DNA from: Croceivirga sp.
GTDB lineage: Bacteria > Bacteroidota > Bacteroidia > Flavobacteriales > Flavobacteriaceae
DNA length: 64,000 bases
Reading direction: 5' to 3'
Assembly (NCBI GenBank): GCA_028284665.1
Contig: JANQRG010000038.1
Span: 1 to 64,000, forward strand
Part shown: piece by piece, positions 38,047 to 42,691 of the stretch
How positions within the stretch are numbered: the stretch's first letter is position 1
How the letters are laid out: every line of letters begins with the position of its first letter
The notes under the pieces: generated by a model
Databases searched by the model: none
Told to the model about the DNA's origin: nothing
The model's input: the letters and a program-made list of their open reading frames with translations, nothing else
Made by a program: the position numbers and the translations under genes

Positions 38047-40938
38047 TTATTGTCGTTGGAATATATCGTACTTCAGACCAAAAGTCAGCCGTAATCCATA
38101 GTACTCCGCTTGTTGCGTGCGCTCACTTACGCCCTGGAAAAAACGCAAAGGTTGGTTGGTGATGTTGTTCAGATCTGCATAGATCCTAAGCTTGTTGTTA
38201 ATGGCATAGCTGGAATTAAGATCAAGGAAGAATTGCTGATCATAGTAACGGTCTTCAAAAGCGTTCCCTCCCAATTCATCAATATAGGAGTCCGAAAAGT
38301 TGGCAGATAACCGGGCGCTAAACCGTTTCCCTGCATACCCTAAAGAGGCGTTGAACATATTCGGTGCAGTATTGGGAAGCTCCAGATCATCTTCACGCTC
38401 ATCTCCGTCTTCATTACGTATACCATTAGCATCTGATGTTAGAAAGGTATAGTTCATATAGATATTGAAATTCCGTAAAAATCCGGGTAAGAAATCCAGT
38501 TGACGTTGAAATGAAAACTCTACGCCTAGTATAGAAGCATCGTCTCCGTTTAAGGGTTGAAAGACATCAAAACCTGCTGTGCCTGGCCCAAAAGAATCAT
38601 CCGGTGCCTCGGAAATGAATGTATAGATAAAGTCGTTAATACGTTTGTAAAATACCCCTCCGGAAATAAGACCGATACTTTCAAAGTAGTGCTCGCCTAA
38701 CAGATCAAAGTTCATAGAAGTAGTAGGGTCAAGTGTGGCATTTCCAAGAATTATCTCATCATCTGCATTAACAATTTCGGCTCTGGGGATCAGGTCTTCA
38801 TAATTGGGGCGTGCCAAGGTGTTGCTCCAGGCAAAGCGTAGAATAGTTCTATCCGTCAGGTCATATTTAAAATGCACCCCAGGTAAAATATTGGTATAGG
38901 AGTTGTCTCCACTTACCTCTTCAACAATAACCTGTTCTTCAATACCATTTTCTTCGTCTTCCTCAATAAAGGTCAAGCTAAAACCGTCGGATTCCAGTTG
39001 CGTATGTTCCACCCGTACTCCCGCAAGCACACTCAATTTATCCGATAATTTCTGATTCGCCATGATATAACCCGCCCAAACGTCTTCACTGATATCGAAG
39101 TTACCCGGTAAGAACTCCTCTAAAACGGAAGTGCCGTTGTCCTCGTTGAGATCCAGTGTGCCTAACCAATCCTGATCGGGATAGAATCCAGCTGCATATT
39201 GACCTCCGGCAAGAAAATCAGTATCTGTCAAGTTTACGGTTGGGATATCTGCCATGTTAGGAAAAGCTTCCTCCAAATCATATTCAAAGAAGTTGTTGTC
39301 CCGTTCTTTGTTCTTAAATCGTCCCCGCAGACCGAATTGGAAAGTCCCATCCCCATTGCCAAAGAAGTCAGCAGGTAATTCTACGTTAAGGAAAAGATTA
39401 ATATCCTCCTCATCGGTATATTGGGTTTCATTAGTGATCTCGTCAAACTCAAAAGCACTTAGGTCATCGGTATTTGCGGGATCTTCAGCGGTCATAATCG
39501 GAAACTCCGGATCGCTATTGTCATTATTGACAATGTAGTCTGTCTTGTATTGTGCATAACGCTCATCTAAACGCTCCTCCGAAGCTTTGGCATATGACGC
39601 CATCCAATCTACTTTTACCTTACCCCATAAGTGGTCGCCGCCCAAAGTGTAGTTCTGCATTCGTTGGTCTTCCAGACGTGCATTCTGATTACGGTCGTTG
39701 TCTATCCCTCCTTTTGTTTCCCGGGCCACTTCCGCACGAAAACTGGTAGGAGTATTGTTCGTAAGTGTGAAATCGCCTTCTAGAAGTTCATCTGCATCCA
39801 AAACTTCCGTTGCAACTACAAAACGATTCTCCCGATCATCCCTCCAATTGTACATGGTCTTTAAATAAATAGAGTTATTCACGTCAAACTGATAATCCAG
39901 ATTCACGGAAAAGCTCCTTCTTACTCGTTGTATCAGGTAGGTACGCTGCTCAAAAACATCCGTATATGGATTTACGTCAATATCCTCTTCTTCCCCATCG
40001 GCATTAGTAAAAGAAAACTCATTATCCCATTCTGCTTCAATATTGTCAGAACCAAAATCGTTATCCTGAATGACGGCGGCAAGCATCCATCCAAATTTAC
40101 CATCCTTGGTACGGTCGCCTAACAAGAAGGAGGCATTCAGGTTTCTTCGGTCCGTAATAAAATTCAATCCGGACCCTAAGGTTGTGGAAAGTCGGAAACC
40201 CTGAGGAGCAGAACGTGTAACCAAATTGACCGATCCTCCCAATGCATCTCCGTCCATATCCGGGGTAACCGCCTTATTCACTTCAATAGTCTGGATCATA
40301 TCGGAAGGAATGAGGTCCATCTGGATATTCCGGTTATCCCCTTCTGCCGAGGGGATGCGACTTCCATTCAAAGTAACGGAGTTGAGTTGTGGCGAAAGTC
40401 CCCGTACAATGATATCCCGGGCCTCACCCTGGTCTACCTGCATCGTGATCCCTGGAATACGTTTTACGGCATCTCCAATATTAGCATCCGGAAATTTTCC
40501 TATTTGGTCAGTGGAAACTACGTTAGTGATGTTCAGGTTTGTACGTTGGGTGTTCAAGGCTTTGGCCTGGCCACTTAGTCCCTGAGCGGCAACTTCCACC
40601 TCATCCAACTGATAATTGGTAGGGTTCAATGCTATTGTTAAACCCGTTGTTTCCCCATCGTTTACAGCAACATCCTGTTCTACGTCACCATAGCCGATAT
40701 AGGTGATCTTTATGCTATGACTCCCTTCCGGGATGCCTACAAGGGTAAAGCGGCCGTCAAAATCTGAAATGGTCCCCTTGTTAAGGTCGGCGATGATGAT
40801 GTTGGCACCGGATACATAGATCCCGTTCTCATCGGAAATGGTTCCCGTAATGTTTCCTGTTTGTGCGTAGCTATGCAGCATCCCAAAGAAGGAGAAAAGC
40901 GTTACAACAACTACTTTTGCTAAGTAAATTGACTTCAT
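38047..40938 (-). CDS. TonB-dependent receptor, probably for phytate or its products
   Basis: From ATG 40938 the product is 963 residues with a signal peptide (AKVVVVTLFSFFGMLHSYAQ), a carboxypeptidase-regulatory-like domain (GTISDENGIYVSGANI), a plug domain (about 120-250: GDAVKRIPGITMQVDQGEA, DGDALGGSVNLVTRSAP) and a large barrel ending in LRLTFGLKYDIFQRQ. The longer open frame to 41058 would run through the promoter elements and lacks a signal start, so it is rejected. The following gene is a phytase lipoprotein and the preceding one a TPR-LuxR regulator, which points to inositol-phosphate or phosphate uptake (inference). Confidence 0.9.
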   Translation of the reverse strand: MKSIYLAKVVVVTLFSFFGMLHSYAQTGNITGTISDENGIYVSGANIIIADLNKGTISDFDGRFTLVGIPEGSHSIKITYIGYGDVEQDVAVNDGETTGLTIALNPTNYQLDEVEVAAQGLSGQAKALNTQRTNLNITNVVSTDQIGKFPDANIGDAVKRIPGITMQVDQGEARDIIVRGLSPQLNSVTLNGSRIPSAEGDNRNIQMDLIPSDMIQTIEVNKAVTPDMDGDALGGSVNLVTRSAPQGFRLSTTLGSGLNFITDRRNLNASFLLGDRTKDGKFGWMLAAVIQDNDFGSDNIEAEWDNEFSFTNADGEEEDIDVNPYTDVFEQRTYLIQRVRRSFSVNLDYQFDVNNSIYLKTMYNWRDDRENRFVVATEVLDADELLEGDFTLTNNTPTSFRAEVARETKGGIDNDRNQNARLEDQRMQNYTLGGDHLWGKVKVDWMASYAKASEERLDERYAQYKTDYIVNNDNSDPEFPIMTAEDPANTDDLSAFEFDEITNETQYTDEEDINLFLNVELPADFFGNGDGTFQFGLRGRFKNKERDNNFFEYDLEEAFPNMADIPTVNLTDTDFLAGGQYAAGFYPDQDWLGTLDLNEDNGTSVLEEFLPGNFDISEDVWAGYIMANQKLSDKLSVLAGVRVEHTQLESDGFSLTFIEEDEENGIEEQVIVEEVSGDNSYTNILPGVHFKYDLTDRTILRFAWSNTLARPNYEDLIPRAEIVNADDEIILGNATLDPTTSMNFDLLGEHYFESIGLISGGVFYKRINDFIYTFISEAPDDSFGPGTAGFDVFQPLNGDDASILGVEFSFQRQLDFLPGFLRNFNIYMNYTFLTSDANGIRNEDGDEREDDLELPNTAPNMFNASLGYAGKRFSARLSANFSDSYIDELGGNAFEDRYYDQQFFLDLNSSYAINNKLRIYADLNNITNQPLRFFQGVSERTQQAEYYGLRLTFGLKYDIFQRQ

Positions 40939-40962: not shown

Positions 40963-40990
40963 CAAAGCTATCACTATCAATTGATTACAA
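40963..40990 (-). promoter_or_regulatory. Predicted Bacteroidota promoter of the TonB receptor-phytase operon
   Basis: On the minus strand a -7 box TAGCTTTG (40963-40970) fits TAnnTTTG exactly and is preceded after 17 bases by TTG (40988-40990), a short -33 element. The transcript would start near 40957, leaving a leader of about 20 bases before the ATG at 40938. The direct-repeat array at 41000-41054 ends nine bases upstream of the -33 element. Confidence 0.65.
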
Positions 40991-40999
40991 TTTAAAATT

Positions 41000-41054
41000 G
41001 AGGGCAACAAAAAGGAAACAAAAGTGGTATTGAGAGGAAACAATAAGGCAACAA
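41000..41054 (-). promoter_or_regulatory. Five-unit 11-bp direct-repeat array upstream of the TonB receptor gene
   Basis: Read on the minus strand, five consecutive 11-base units occur: TTGTTGCCTTA, TTGTTTCCTCT, CAATACCACTT, TTGTTTCCTTT, TTGTTGCCCTC. Four of five share TTGTTKCC exactly; the middle one has decayed. The period is one helical turn, so a tandemly bound activator would lie on one face of the DNA. Its place directly upstream of the -33 box suits activation. The 11-bp period matches the geometry of PhoB-type boxes, although the bases differ from those of E. coli. Confidence 0.75.
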
Positions 41055-41101
41055 TCACATTTTGTTTACATTGGAATAACGTTTCCTAAAATATCAAGGG
41101 C

Positions 41102-42691
41102 TTACAGGTCTACCATAAAGTTTACCAGCTCTTCTTTTTGGTCAATAGGAAGTTTTTTTCGCAGTCGGTACCGGGCCACACGAACACTATCCGGAGTTAC
41201 TCTTAAAATTGAAGCAATTTCCTTTGATGACAGGTTAAGCCGCAATAGCATTCCTAAACGCATTTCGGCCGGGGAGAGACTACTTCCCGAAAGAGCGGAC
41301 AGCTTTCTTATAAAGTCCGGATGAATCTCCTTAAAGAAGTTCATAAACTCATCCCATTCTCCCTCTTGTTGTAAATTAAAGTCGATCTCTTTGGCCAATT
41401 CTTTAATCTTGAAGCTGGCATCCATGCTACGGCGTGAAACGATGTTCTTTAAGGTTTTTGATAAGTCCAATAAGATCTTATTCTTCTGAGATAAATGAAG
41501 GCTATACCTGGACAAAGCGGCTGTTTTAAGTTGTATTTGTTGTTGCAAATTCTCTTCCTCAAAGGCTTTCCGTTCCAATTCTGCCTTTAGAATCCGTTGT
41601 TCGTATTCCTGAATTTTCAGTTTGGCTTGTCGCTTTCTACCCCGATAGGTAAAGGCTACAATTAGTATCGCCGCAACAGCAAATAAGGCTACCCAAAGTA
41701 ACTTTTGATTGGCACTACTCACCTTGTTCTGTTCCTGTAGTAGCTGTATTTGAGCTTCTTTTTTATTGGTATCATAAATGGTTTGCAACACATTGAGCTG
41801 TCTTGTGTTTTGATTTTCCAGCCATTCCCTATTGTACCGTTCTGCTTCCGATAAGTAATAATGTGCTTGTTTAAAATCACCAAGCAAGACGTAAGCCTTG
41901 GAAAGATCTTTATTCGCACTTTCCAGTTGATGGTTATCCTGTATTGCCCCCGCCACTTGCATGGCCTTGCCCGTGTAAATCAGGGCGTTGGGATAATCTC
42001 CCTGTTTGCGATATACATCGCCTAAATTGTTAAGGACGTTAGCCTCTTGCCAAATTCTCTTGCCGTGCAGGTATTCAAACGATTTTTGGAAGTAACGGAA
42101 GGCCATATCATATTCTCCCAAATCCTCATAAATACTCCCAATATTTTCATTAGCCATAGAAACCCCCGCTTTATCTCCCAATTCCTGAAAAAGCGAAAGA
42201 CTTTGTTTTTGATACTCCAGCGCCTCAGGGTACTTCCCTTGCTTTTCAAAACATGCCCCTAAAAGCCCTTTTGATACAGCCACCCCTTTTGTATTGCCTA
42301 AAAGGTTTGCTATTTCCTCACTTTCCTCAAAATATTGTTTGGCTATTTCGAATTTGCTTAAGGAAAAATGAACTTTTCCAATACAATTGTTTACGATAAC
42401 ATGAAGGGTGTCTTTCTCAAAGTGGTGAACACGTTCTAATGCCTTATTGAATTGCTCCAATGCCTCTGAATAGACCCCGGTAGTACGATAAAATTCTCCT
42501 AATTTCCAATGGCGTTGTGAAATTAAAAGGGCATTTGATCCTTTTGTAGCCTCTTCTAGTTGCCCCTTAAGCGCAAAGAATATGGAATCTGCTTTTTTAT
42601 TGGAAGTGAAGTTAGAAGGAGCGGATTGACTGGAAATACTCTCTGCCAAGAGTATGGAAAACACAAACAAGTAAATGAGTCCCTGCTTCAT
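41102..42691 (-). CDS. TPR-containing LuxR-type transcriptional regulator
   Basis: A 529-residue protein with an N-terminal signal/anchor-like stretch (LIYLFVFSILLAESIS), about six tetratricopeptide repeats (residues 50-300, for example GEYDMAFRYFQKSFEYL, GDYPNALIYTGKAMQVAG), a membrane helix near 335-350 (LLWVALFAVAAILIVAF), a coiled coil, and a C-terminal LuxR-like helix-turn-helix with LSSKEIASILRVTPDSVRVA. Sensing would occur outside and DNA binding inside the membrane. It is encoded immediately upstream of the receptor-phytase pair on the same strand and is a good candidate to bind the repeat array. Confidence 0.88.
   Translation of the reverse strand: MKQGLIYLFVFSILLAESISSQSAPSNFTSNKKADSIFFALKGQLEEATKGSNALLISQRHWKLGEFYRTTGVYSEALEQFNKALERVHHFEKDTLHVIVNNCIGKVHFSLSKFEIAKQYFEESEEIANLLGNTKGVAVSKGLLGACFEKQGKYPEALEYQKQSLSLFQELGDKAGVSMANENIGSIYEDLGEYDMAFRYFQKSFEYLHGKRIWQEANVLNNLGDVYRKQGDYPNALIYTGKAMQVAGAIQDNHQLESANKDLSKAYVLLGDFKQAHYYLSEAERYNREWLENQNTRQLNVLQTIYDTNKKEAQIQLLQEQNKVSSANQKLLWVALFAVAAILIVAFTYRGRKRQAKLKIQEYEQRILKAELERKAFEEENLQQQIQLKTAALSRYSLHLSQKNKILLDLSKTLKNIVSRRSMDASFKIKELAKEIDFNLQQEGEWDEFMNFFKEIHPDFIRKLSALSGSSLSPAEMRLGMLLRLNLSSKEIASILRVTPDSVRVARYRLRKKLPIDQKEELVNFMVDL

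Follow-up and report, generated by a model that had tools for sequence, protein, structure and literature searches.

Genes and repeats at the locus

Three genes lie on the minus strand of the window (the whole 64,000-nucleotide stretch of DNA that was analysed): one encoding a 529-aa TPR-HTH regulator (41102..42691), one encoding a TonB-dependent receptor of the TIGR01782 type (38047..40938) and, as the next gene downstream of the receptor, one encoding a phytase-family protein (PF02333; 36967..37992) with a lipobox-like N-terminus. A repeat array is located in the 163-bp intergenic region that leads from the regulator gene to the receptor gene. The regulator is the proposed binder of this array, and the receptor gene is its proposed target.

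The regulator carries a TPR domain, one hydrophobic (transmembrane) segment at residues 326-352, a long helix and a C-terminal NarL/LuxR-type HTH. AlphaFold modelled a single helix from residue 273 to residue 419 (mean pLDDT 83.9, pTM 0.56). By hydropathy, an internal hydrophobic segment followed by K/R was found in 35/35 aligned regulators, with two overlapping calls in one row. A signal-peptide-like N-terminal segment exceeded the hydropathy threshold in 6 of the 35 rows, many rows being cut at the N-terminus, and no N-terminal hydrophobic segment above the threshold was detected in the regulator of the window. Hydropathy and the model together suggest the topology of the protein, in which the TPRs would be located in the periplasm. 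The Pfam scan of the regulator returned TPR-type and other helical-repeat matches, DUF6377, Sigma70_r4_2 and GerE, and no kinase, receiver, AraC, ATPase or autoinducer domain match. The C-terminal HTH is of the GerE/NarL type: its profile matched EL222 and NarL (E 4e-4 to 5e-4) as well as VraR, the top-ranked Foldseek matches of its model were response-regulator or LuxR-type HTH proteins (probability up to 1.00, E at least 0.04), and Pfam GerE scored 19.4 bits, under the cut-off of 23.5.

The array itself can be read directly. From 41054 to 41000, the minus strand is TTGTTGCCTTA TTGTTTCCTCT CAATACCACTT TTGTTTCCTTT TTGTTGCCCTC, that is, five 11-bp registers (41000..41054, hereafter ladder B), of which units 1, 2, 4 and 5 match TTGTTKCC and unit 3 does not, forming a one-unit spacer. 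When the 163-bp intergenic region was shuffled 20,000 times (first-order Markov), four in-register units never appeared (0/20,000), and at least three matching units in register appeared in 27 shuffles. When the 64-kb window was cut into 163-bp windows, the 4-unit score was reached in 3 of 1,558 of them (2 on the plus strand and 1 on the minus strand). The 11-bp repeat array described in the preliminary description, with four TTGTTKCC units and a deviating third, is thereby confirmed as real. The promoter geometry given there was also found in the window, with a TTG at 40990-40988 followed, after 17 bases, by TAGCTTTG at 40970-40963 (40963..40970, minus strand), which is a Bacteroidota -7 box (TAnnTTTG). 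The genome-wide search for the paired word that had been suggested at the same time was conducted by exact matching in the assembly (51 contigs, 4,589,486 bases, 97% complete), and TTGTTKCC-N3-TTGTTKCC gave 2 matches, both inside the array.

The array and the regulator gene in orthologous loci

We studied how the array is distributed relative to the regulator gene. In 299 genomes of the family, the regulator was detected in 31 (weakest E 1.4e-113, threshold 1e-55) and the receptor in 61 (E<=1e-200). A phytase match, weak in some cases, follows the receptor in 57/61 of these stretches. TGTTGC was present no more than 300 bp upstream of the receptor in 31/31 loci of this even sample with an adjacent regulator gene and in 0/30 without. 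The same held for 127 distinct promoters derived from 148 loci: read on the strand of the receptor, the array occurred in all 79 with the regulator and in none of the 48 without, 5 of the latter carrying the reverse complement GCAACA. For Flavobacterium, where 63 of 199 genomes have the receptor, 34 loci were read, and the array was found in 4/4 with the regulator and 0/30 without; one of these genus loci, L389, carries neither. The array was thus kept upstream of orthologous receptors wherever the regulator gene adjoins, a point on which the preliminary description had staked its proposal.

Mapped onto a tree of 61 receptor sequences, the two traits changed 11 times each, and the changes were joint in 9/9 supported independent pairs (p=0.0039); gain and loss are not distinguished by the receptor tree. 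No orthologue of the regulator (E<=1e-40) was detected in any of the 26 array-less genomes searched, one of which holds a 30%-identical paralogue, and none was found away from the receptor, 31/31 being adjacent. Being neighbours, the regulator gene and the array could be gained or lost jointly by plain linkage; however, linkage would leave unexplained the conserved ladder and the words that paralogous regulators have of their own. Some array-bearing genera encode regulators that are only about 40% identical to that of the window. The recognition helix is nearly invariant across orthologues, and covariation between protein and word is uninformative there.

To define the conserved part of the promoter, we aligned 82 loci, comprising the listed matches, the window locus and the genus loci L009 and L010. 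The phytase scan had given at least 80 loci among the matches listed, from which L111 was dropped as it has no receptor match; the five genus loci L004-L008, three of which duplicate loci of the set, were excluded from the alignment. The TPR-HTH gene lies just upstream of the receptor in 55 of the 82 loci and is missing in 27. The alignment of the 55 regulator-bearing intergenic regions has hardly any gaps between the array and the TAnnTTTG box, which is conserved in these orthologous promoters, and the footprint covers about 90 bp, its phased part extending about 37 bp further upstream than the array. Counted from the first TGTTGC, the ladder B offsets kept in orthologues are 0, 11, 33 and 44, with TGT in 54, 26, 23 and 48 of 54 promoters, respectively; an off-phase TGT occurs at +8 in 22/54. 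The third unit, which the preliminary description called decayed, indeed deviates in the window, but it does so in the orthologues as well, and it is better described as a poorly conserved spacer of one unit in length. The -33 TTG of that description is present in the window and is not conserved in orthologues (T in 38/51 at the first of offsets 63-65, then mixed).

The additional upstream part forms an outer ladder (ladder A, 41055..41092, minus strand) of weaker 11-bp phased TGTWA/GTTA units at offsets -39, -28, -17 and -6, shifted by 6 bp, about half a turn, relative to ladder B. In the window, TGTAA at 41070, TGTGA at 41059 and GTTA at 41080 belong to it, and the outermost unit is unrecognisable. 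Among 51 non-redundant promoters, in which TGTTGC is invariant, T is also invariant at -37, -26 and -15 and present in 50/51 at -4. TGT was found in 17, 12, 50 and 32 of 54 promoters at -39, -28, -17 and -6, so that the units at -28 (12/54) and -39 (17/54) are often present but not a general feature. Autocorrelation of the promoter profile was highest at lag 11 (0.106; permuted columns gave -0.001, sd 0.019), with lags 22 and 33 next. In ladder B taken separately, lag 11 reached 0.095, which does not exceed the permuted maximum of 0.106, and the strongest lags were 44 and 33.

The distance from TGTTGC to the TAnnTTTG box is near-constant, amounting to 83 bp in 65, 82 bp in 13 and 72 bp in 1 of the 79 distinct promoters. 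In the 72-bp outlier, locus L080, exactly 11 bp are missing in the spacer; the only large spacing indel is 11 bp and therefore one helical turn. With its array one 11-bp turn closer to the box, L080 represents a natural test of helical phasing.

We also inspected the promoters that lack the regulator gene. The 11-bp direct repeat TTAA-N7-TTAA was present in 12/22 regulator-less promoters of closer relatives (1.05 in shuffles) and in 0/31 promoters with the regulator; in L178, L179, L189, L190, L218-L220 and others, it lies about 59-84 bp upstream of the receptor. It is possible that this repeat is a Pho-type box. The longer form CTTAAAA-N4-CTTAA was not enriched over its reversed control across 7 genomes (23 vs 38 matches in total), no TTAA-N7-TTAA was found at the PhoX loci L241 and L242, and the PstS model TIGR00975 gave no match in 10 genomes. 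In three Maribacter genomes (G014, G015 and G016), one of the 2-4 CTTAAAA-N4-CTTAA matches is the receptor promoter, and at the Maribacter loci L255 and L263 another match lies near a gene that appeared PhoH-like by eye. A further block, ATCATAACA-N5-TTAATTTTTT, is shared by several regulator-less Flavobacterium promoters, where it is located upstream of the receptor (L367, L370, L371, L373, L374 and L389-L392). It would be plausible for the genes of receptor and phytase to have switched between regulation by Pho and regulation by a local protein.

A candidate operator and competing explanations

We consider it likely that the array serves as operator for the TPR-HTH regulator whose gene lies directly upstream of it; this protein would act as a membrane-anchored activator of the receptor and phytase genes. 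The preliminary description had named this TPR-LuxR neighbour as the alternative to PhoB, and the co-occurrence of array and gene (79/79 and 0/48), together with the joint change in 9/9 pairs, speaks for it; the neighbour, rather than PhoB, is likely to be the binder. Its comparison of the layout with an activator site was likewise borne out, as the array is helically phased, stands upstream of the promoter and is kept at orthologous receptors.

In the proposed mechanism, the regulator would be a one-component protein anchored in the inner membrane, with a periplasmic TPR sensor, one transmembrane helix that continues as a coiled coil, and an HTH of the NarL/LuxR type in the cytoplasm. The identity of the neighbouring genes suggests phytate, a phytate product or the state of the receptor as the cue. 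Upon this cue, the HTH units would align head-to-tail on the same side of the double helix, with each 11-bp unit taking one of them, so that ladder B is occupied as two pairs around one empty turn and ladder A provides weaker contacts. The complex, lying just upstream of the promoter, would then recruit RNA polymerase for transcription of the receptor and phytase genes, which would be transcribed together, from a promoter that keeps the TAnnTTTG box and has no conserved -33 element. Activator-dependent promoters often lack a conserved -33 element, and this feature and the position of the array suggest activation.

Among the competing explanations, the one with the largest share, although still rather unlikely, is that the array is bound by the TPR-HTH protein, which would act chiefly as a repressor or control its own gene as well. 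The array lies between the stop codon of the regulator and the receptor gene, and the sequence does not reveal whether its binder activates or represses. Against this explanation, the array stands upstream of the -33/-7 region at a near-fixed, helically phased distance, does not overlap the -7 box and lies 3′ of the regulator gene, and the promoter lacks the conserved -33 element discussed above. It is improbable that another, global protein binds the array and that the TPR-HTH gene is merely linked to it. Adjacency would permit co-inheritance without function, but no further exact copy of the paired word occurs in the genome, as would be expected of a global site, none of the receptor promoters examined that lack the TPR-HTH gene carries the array, and paralogous regulators have arrays of their own.

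The reading as a Bacteroidota Pho box bound by PhoB, which the preliminary description had considered possible, retains a very small probability. It could appeal to the 11-bp period, to the phytase target and to the corresponding F. johnsoniae genes, since the part of PMC8115612 that concerns them reports that the phytase and receptor genes Fjoh_1367 and Fjoh_1368 rise on phosphate depletion. Nevertheless, exact matching in 4.59 Mb found the array to be the sole genomic site of the paired word, and the array is missing in regulator-less receptor promoters (0/30 in the family sample, 0/48 distinct promoters and 0/30 in Flavobacterium), which often carry another repeat instead; as a Pho box, the array was rejected. 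A neutral short tandem repeat has next to no chance of being the explanation: slippage can create repeats of such a unit length, but TGTTGC stands in 79/79 distinct regulator-positive promoters, including those of genera with about 40%-identical regulators, at near-constant spacing, and this candidate is already refuted by conservation. The TPR-HTH regulator thus remains the favoured binder.

We then compared the proposed operator with known systems. MalT of Enterobacteria combines TPRs with a LuxR-type HTH and binds a direct-repeat array as an oligomer, and it is cytoplasmic and has an ATPase domain. The regulator of the window resembles MalT in its TPR plus LuxR-type HTH and in the direct-repeat array; it differs in its hydrophobic segment and in having no ATPase match, and TPR_MalT scored 29.9 bits against a cut-off of 45. 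Members of the NarL/FixJ/LuxR superfamily usually bind an inverted dimer site. The HTH sequence and fold are of this superfamily, whereas the regulator has no receiver or autoinducer domain match and the array is head-to-tail at 11 bp.

Two Bacteroidota classes are also related in part. For SusR-like regulators of Bacteroides, the site predictions in Ravcheev et al. 2013 (PMC3878776) give same-face direct repeats with two sites 67 or 77 bp apart, in contrast to the 11-bp ladder of the window. As described there, these are membrane proteins with a periplasmic sensor and a C-terminal HTH, often encoded beside an outer-membrane receptor operon. The regulator studied here has the C-terminal HTH and the internal hydrophobic segment, and its TPR sensor may be periplasmic. 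It reached only 40 bits against the 480 cut-off of the SusR model (NCBIfam NF058541), with its N-terminal part only, and its target is a TIGR01782-type receptor plus phytase instead of SusC/SusD. HTCS hybrid two-component regulators likewise sit in the membrane and control TonB receptor operons locally, through predicted direct-repeat sites spaced by about 21 bp (PMC3878776), but they have an AraC-type HTH and kinase and receiver domains, to which the regulator of the window has no matches. The predicted SusR-like repeats 67/77 bp apart are the nearest precedent, and the SusR-like and HTCS site predictions of PMC3878776 do not describe an 11-bp ladder. Searches of open-licence PubMed Central papers listed nothing recognisable as a description of such regulators using an 11-bp repeat code, and excerpts of PMC10434189 contained nothing bearing on it.

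If the proposal is correct, a likely dedicated regulator could be named for phytate/organic-phosphate uptake in Flavobacteriaceae, whose genes are usually ascribed to PhoB. The promoters would also point to natural switching of one gene set, with a regulator in the membrane and encoded nearby on one side and a different kind of control on the other.

Repeats beside related regulators

We further studied whether regulators of the same HTH family have repeats of their own. The paralogue set comprised 41 stretches from the matches listed and from the own genome, which together with the window hold 47 proteins of this HTH family; of five paralogues scanned, three have TPRs and two have Y_Y_Y/Reg_prop (beta-propeller type) matches. 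A windowed autocorrelation score was too blunt for the paralogue flanks, in which matches span 7-8 bases, and exact k-mer pairs were counted instead in 400-bp flanks at distances of 8-60. Exact 8-mer repeats at 11 bp were found in 13/26 genus clusters, compared with a mean of 0.81 clusters at other distances (maximum 4, at 22 and 33) and of 0.60 in shuffles (maximum 4). After merging tandem genes and similar HTHs, 6/8 groups had a repeat at 11 bp (other distances 0.73, maximum 4; shuffles 0.63, maximum 2). As a control, 827 ORFs of loci L033-L112, which include the regulators at those loci, had 7-mer repeats at 11 bp in 4.7% and at other distances in 4.1% on average. The array of the window, whose adjacent units differ at one base, is outside these paralogue counts.

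The statistic was devised after examples from the genus had been seen, and the only independent set consists of 31 regulators encoded in 11 genomes outside the family, analysed with unchanged flank and repeat settings. Here, 7/31 regulators had an 8-mer repeat at 11 bp (other distances 0.67 on average, maximum 4; shuffles 0.43, maximum 3), 9/31 a 7-mer repeat (shuffles 1.39, maximum 6) and 11/31 a 6-mer repeat (shuffles 3.56, maximum 9). In the flanks of the remaining 24/31 distant regulators, an exact 8-mer repeat at 11 bp was missing, and given this number the code must be degenerate, lie elsewhere or fall short of being universal.

The repeated words share a core. Among cluster-distance cases with a 7-mer repeat, TGT or ACA in one word was present in 21/22 at 11 bp versus 56/193 at other distances. 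The words of five paralogues are TTGTAACCC, TATGGACAA, TGTACCCC, ACTACATCA and ACCTCAACA, and one paralogue locus of the own genome, L237, repeats the 2+1+2 layout of the window (TTGTAACCCAT TTGTAACCCTT CGGTGGTGGTG GCGTAACCCAT TTGTAACCAGC). These observations suggest, as the simplest account, that the 11-bp ladder is the binding mode of the regulator's HTH family. With somewhat less confidence than for the operator itself, we favour the view that membrane-anchored one-component regulators of Bacteroidota, forming one large family with a common HTH type and either TPR or beta-propeller sensors, may share a head-to-tail DNA code at exactly 11 bp (multiples allowed). Each unit would combine a TGT core with 3-4 bases specific to the regulator, and the repeats would stand next to the regulator gene, with sensors and words diversifying and the spacing fixed. 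An orphan class of membrane regulators in Bacteroidota would thereby gain a DNA code that can be tested and, since relatives have their own words at equal spacing, the targets and specificities of many little-studied orphan regulators might be readable from sequence.

Several loci with such repeats were noted individually. At L237 (4293-4465), the TTGTAACCC-like units of the TPR-HTH paralogue stand beside a gene with weak PEMT/DUF1295 matches. Around tandem TPR-HTH genes at L232, in the own genome, and at L268 and L271, TATGGACAA / CATGGACAA pairs occur at 11 bp. Two further loci of the own genome encode Y_Y_Y/Reg_prop regulators of the same HTH family: the one at L235 has TTACCTCAACA pairs, and the one at L234 precedes a SusC/TonB-receptor-like gene and has TACATCAC pairs at 11 bp.
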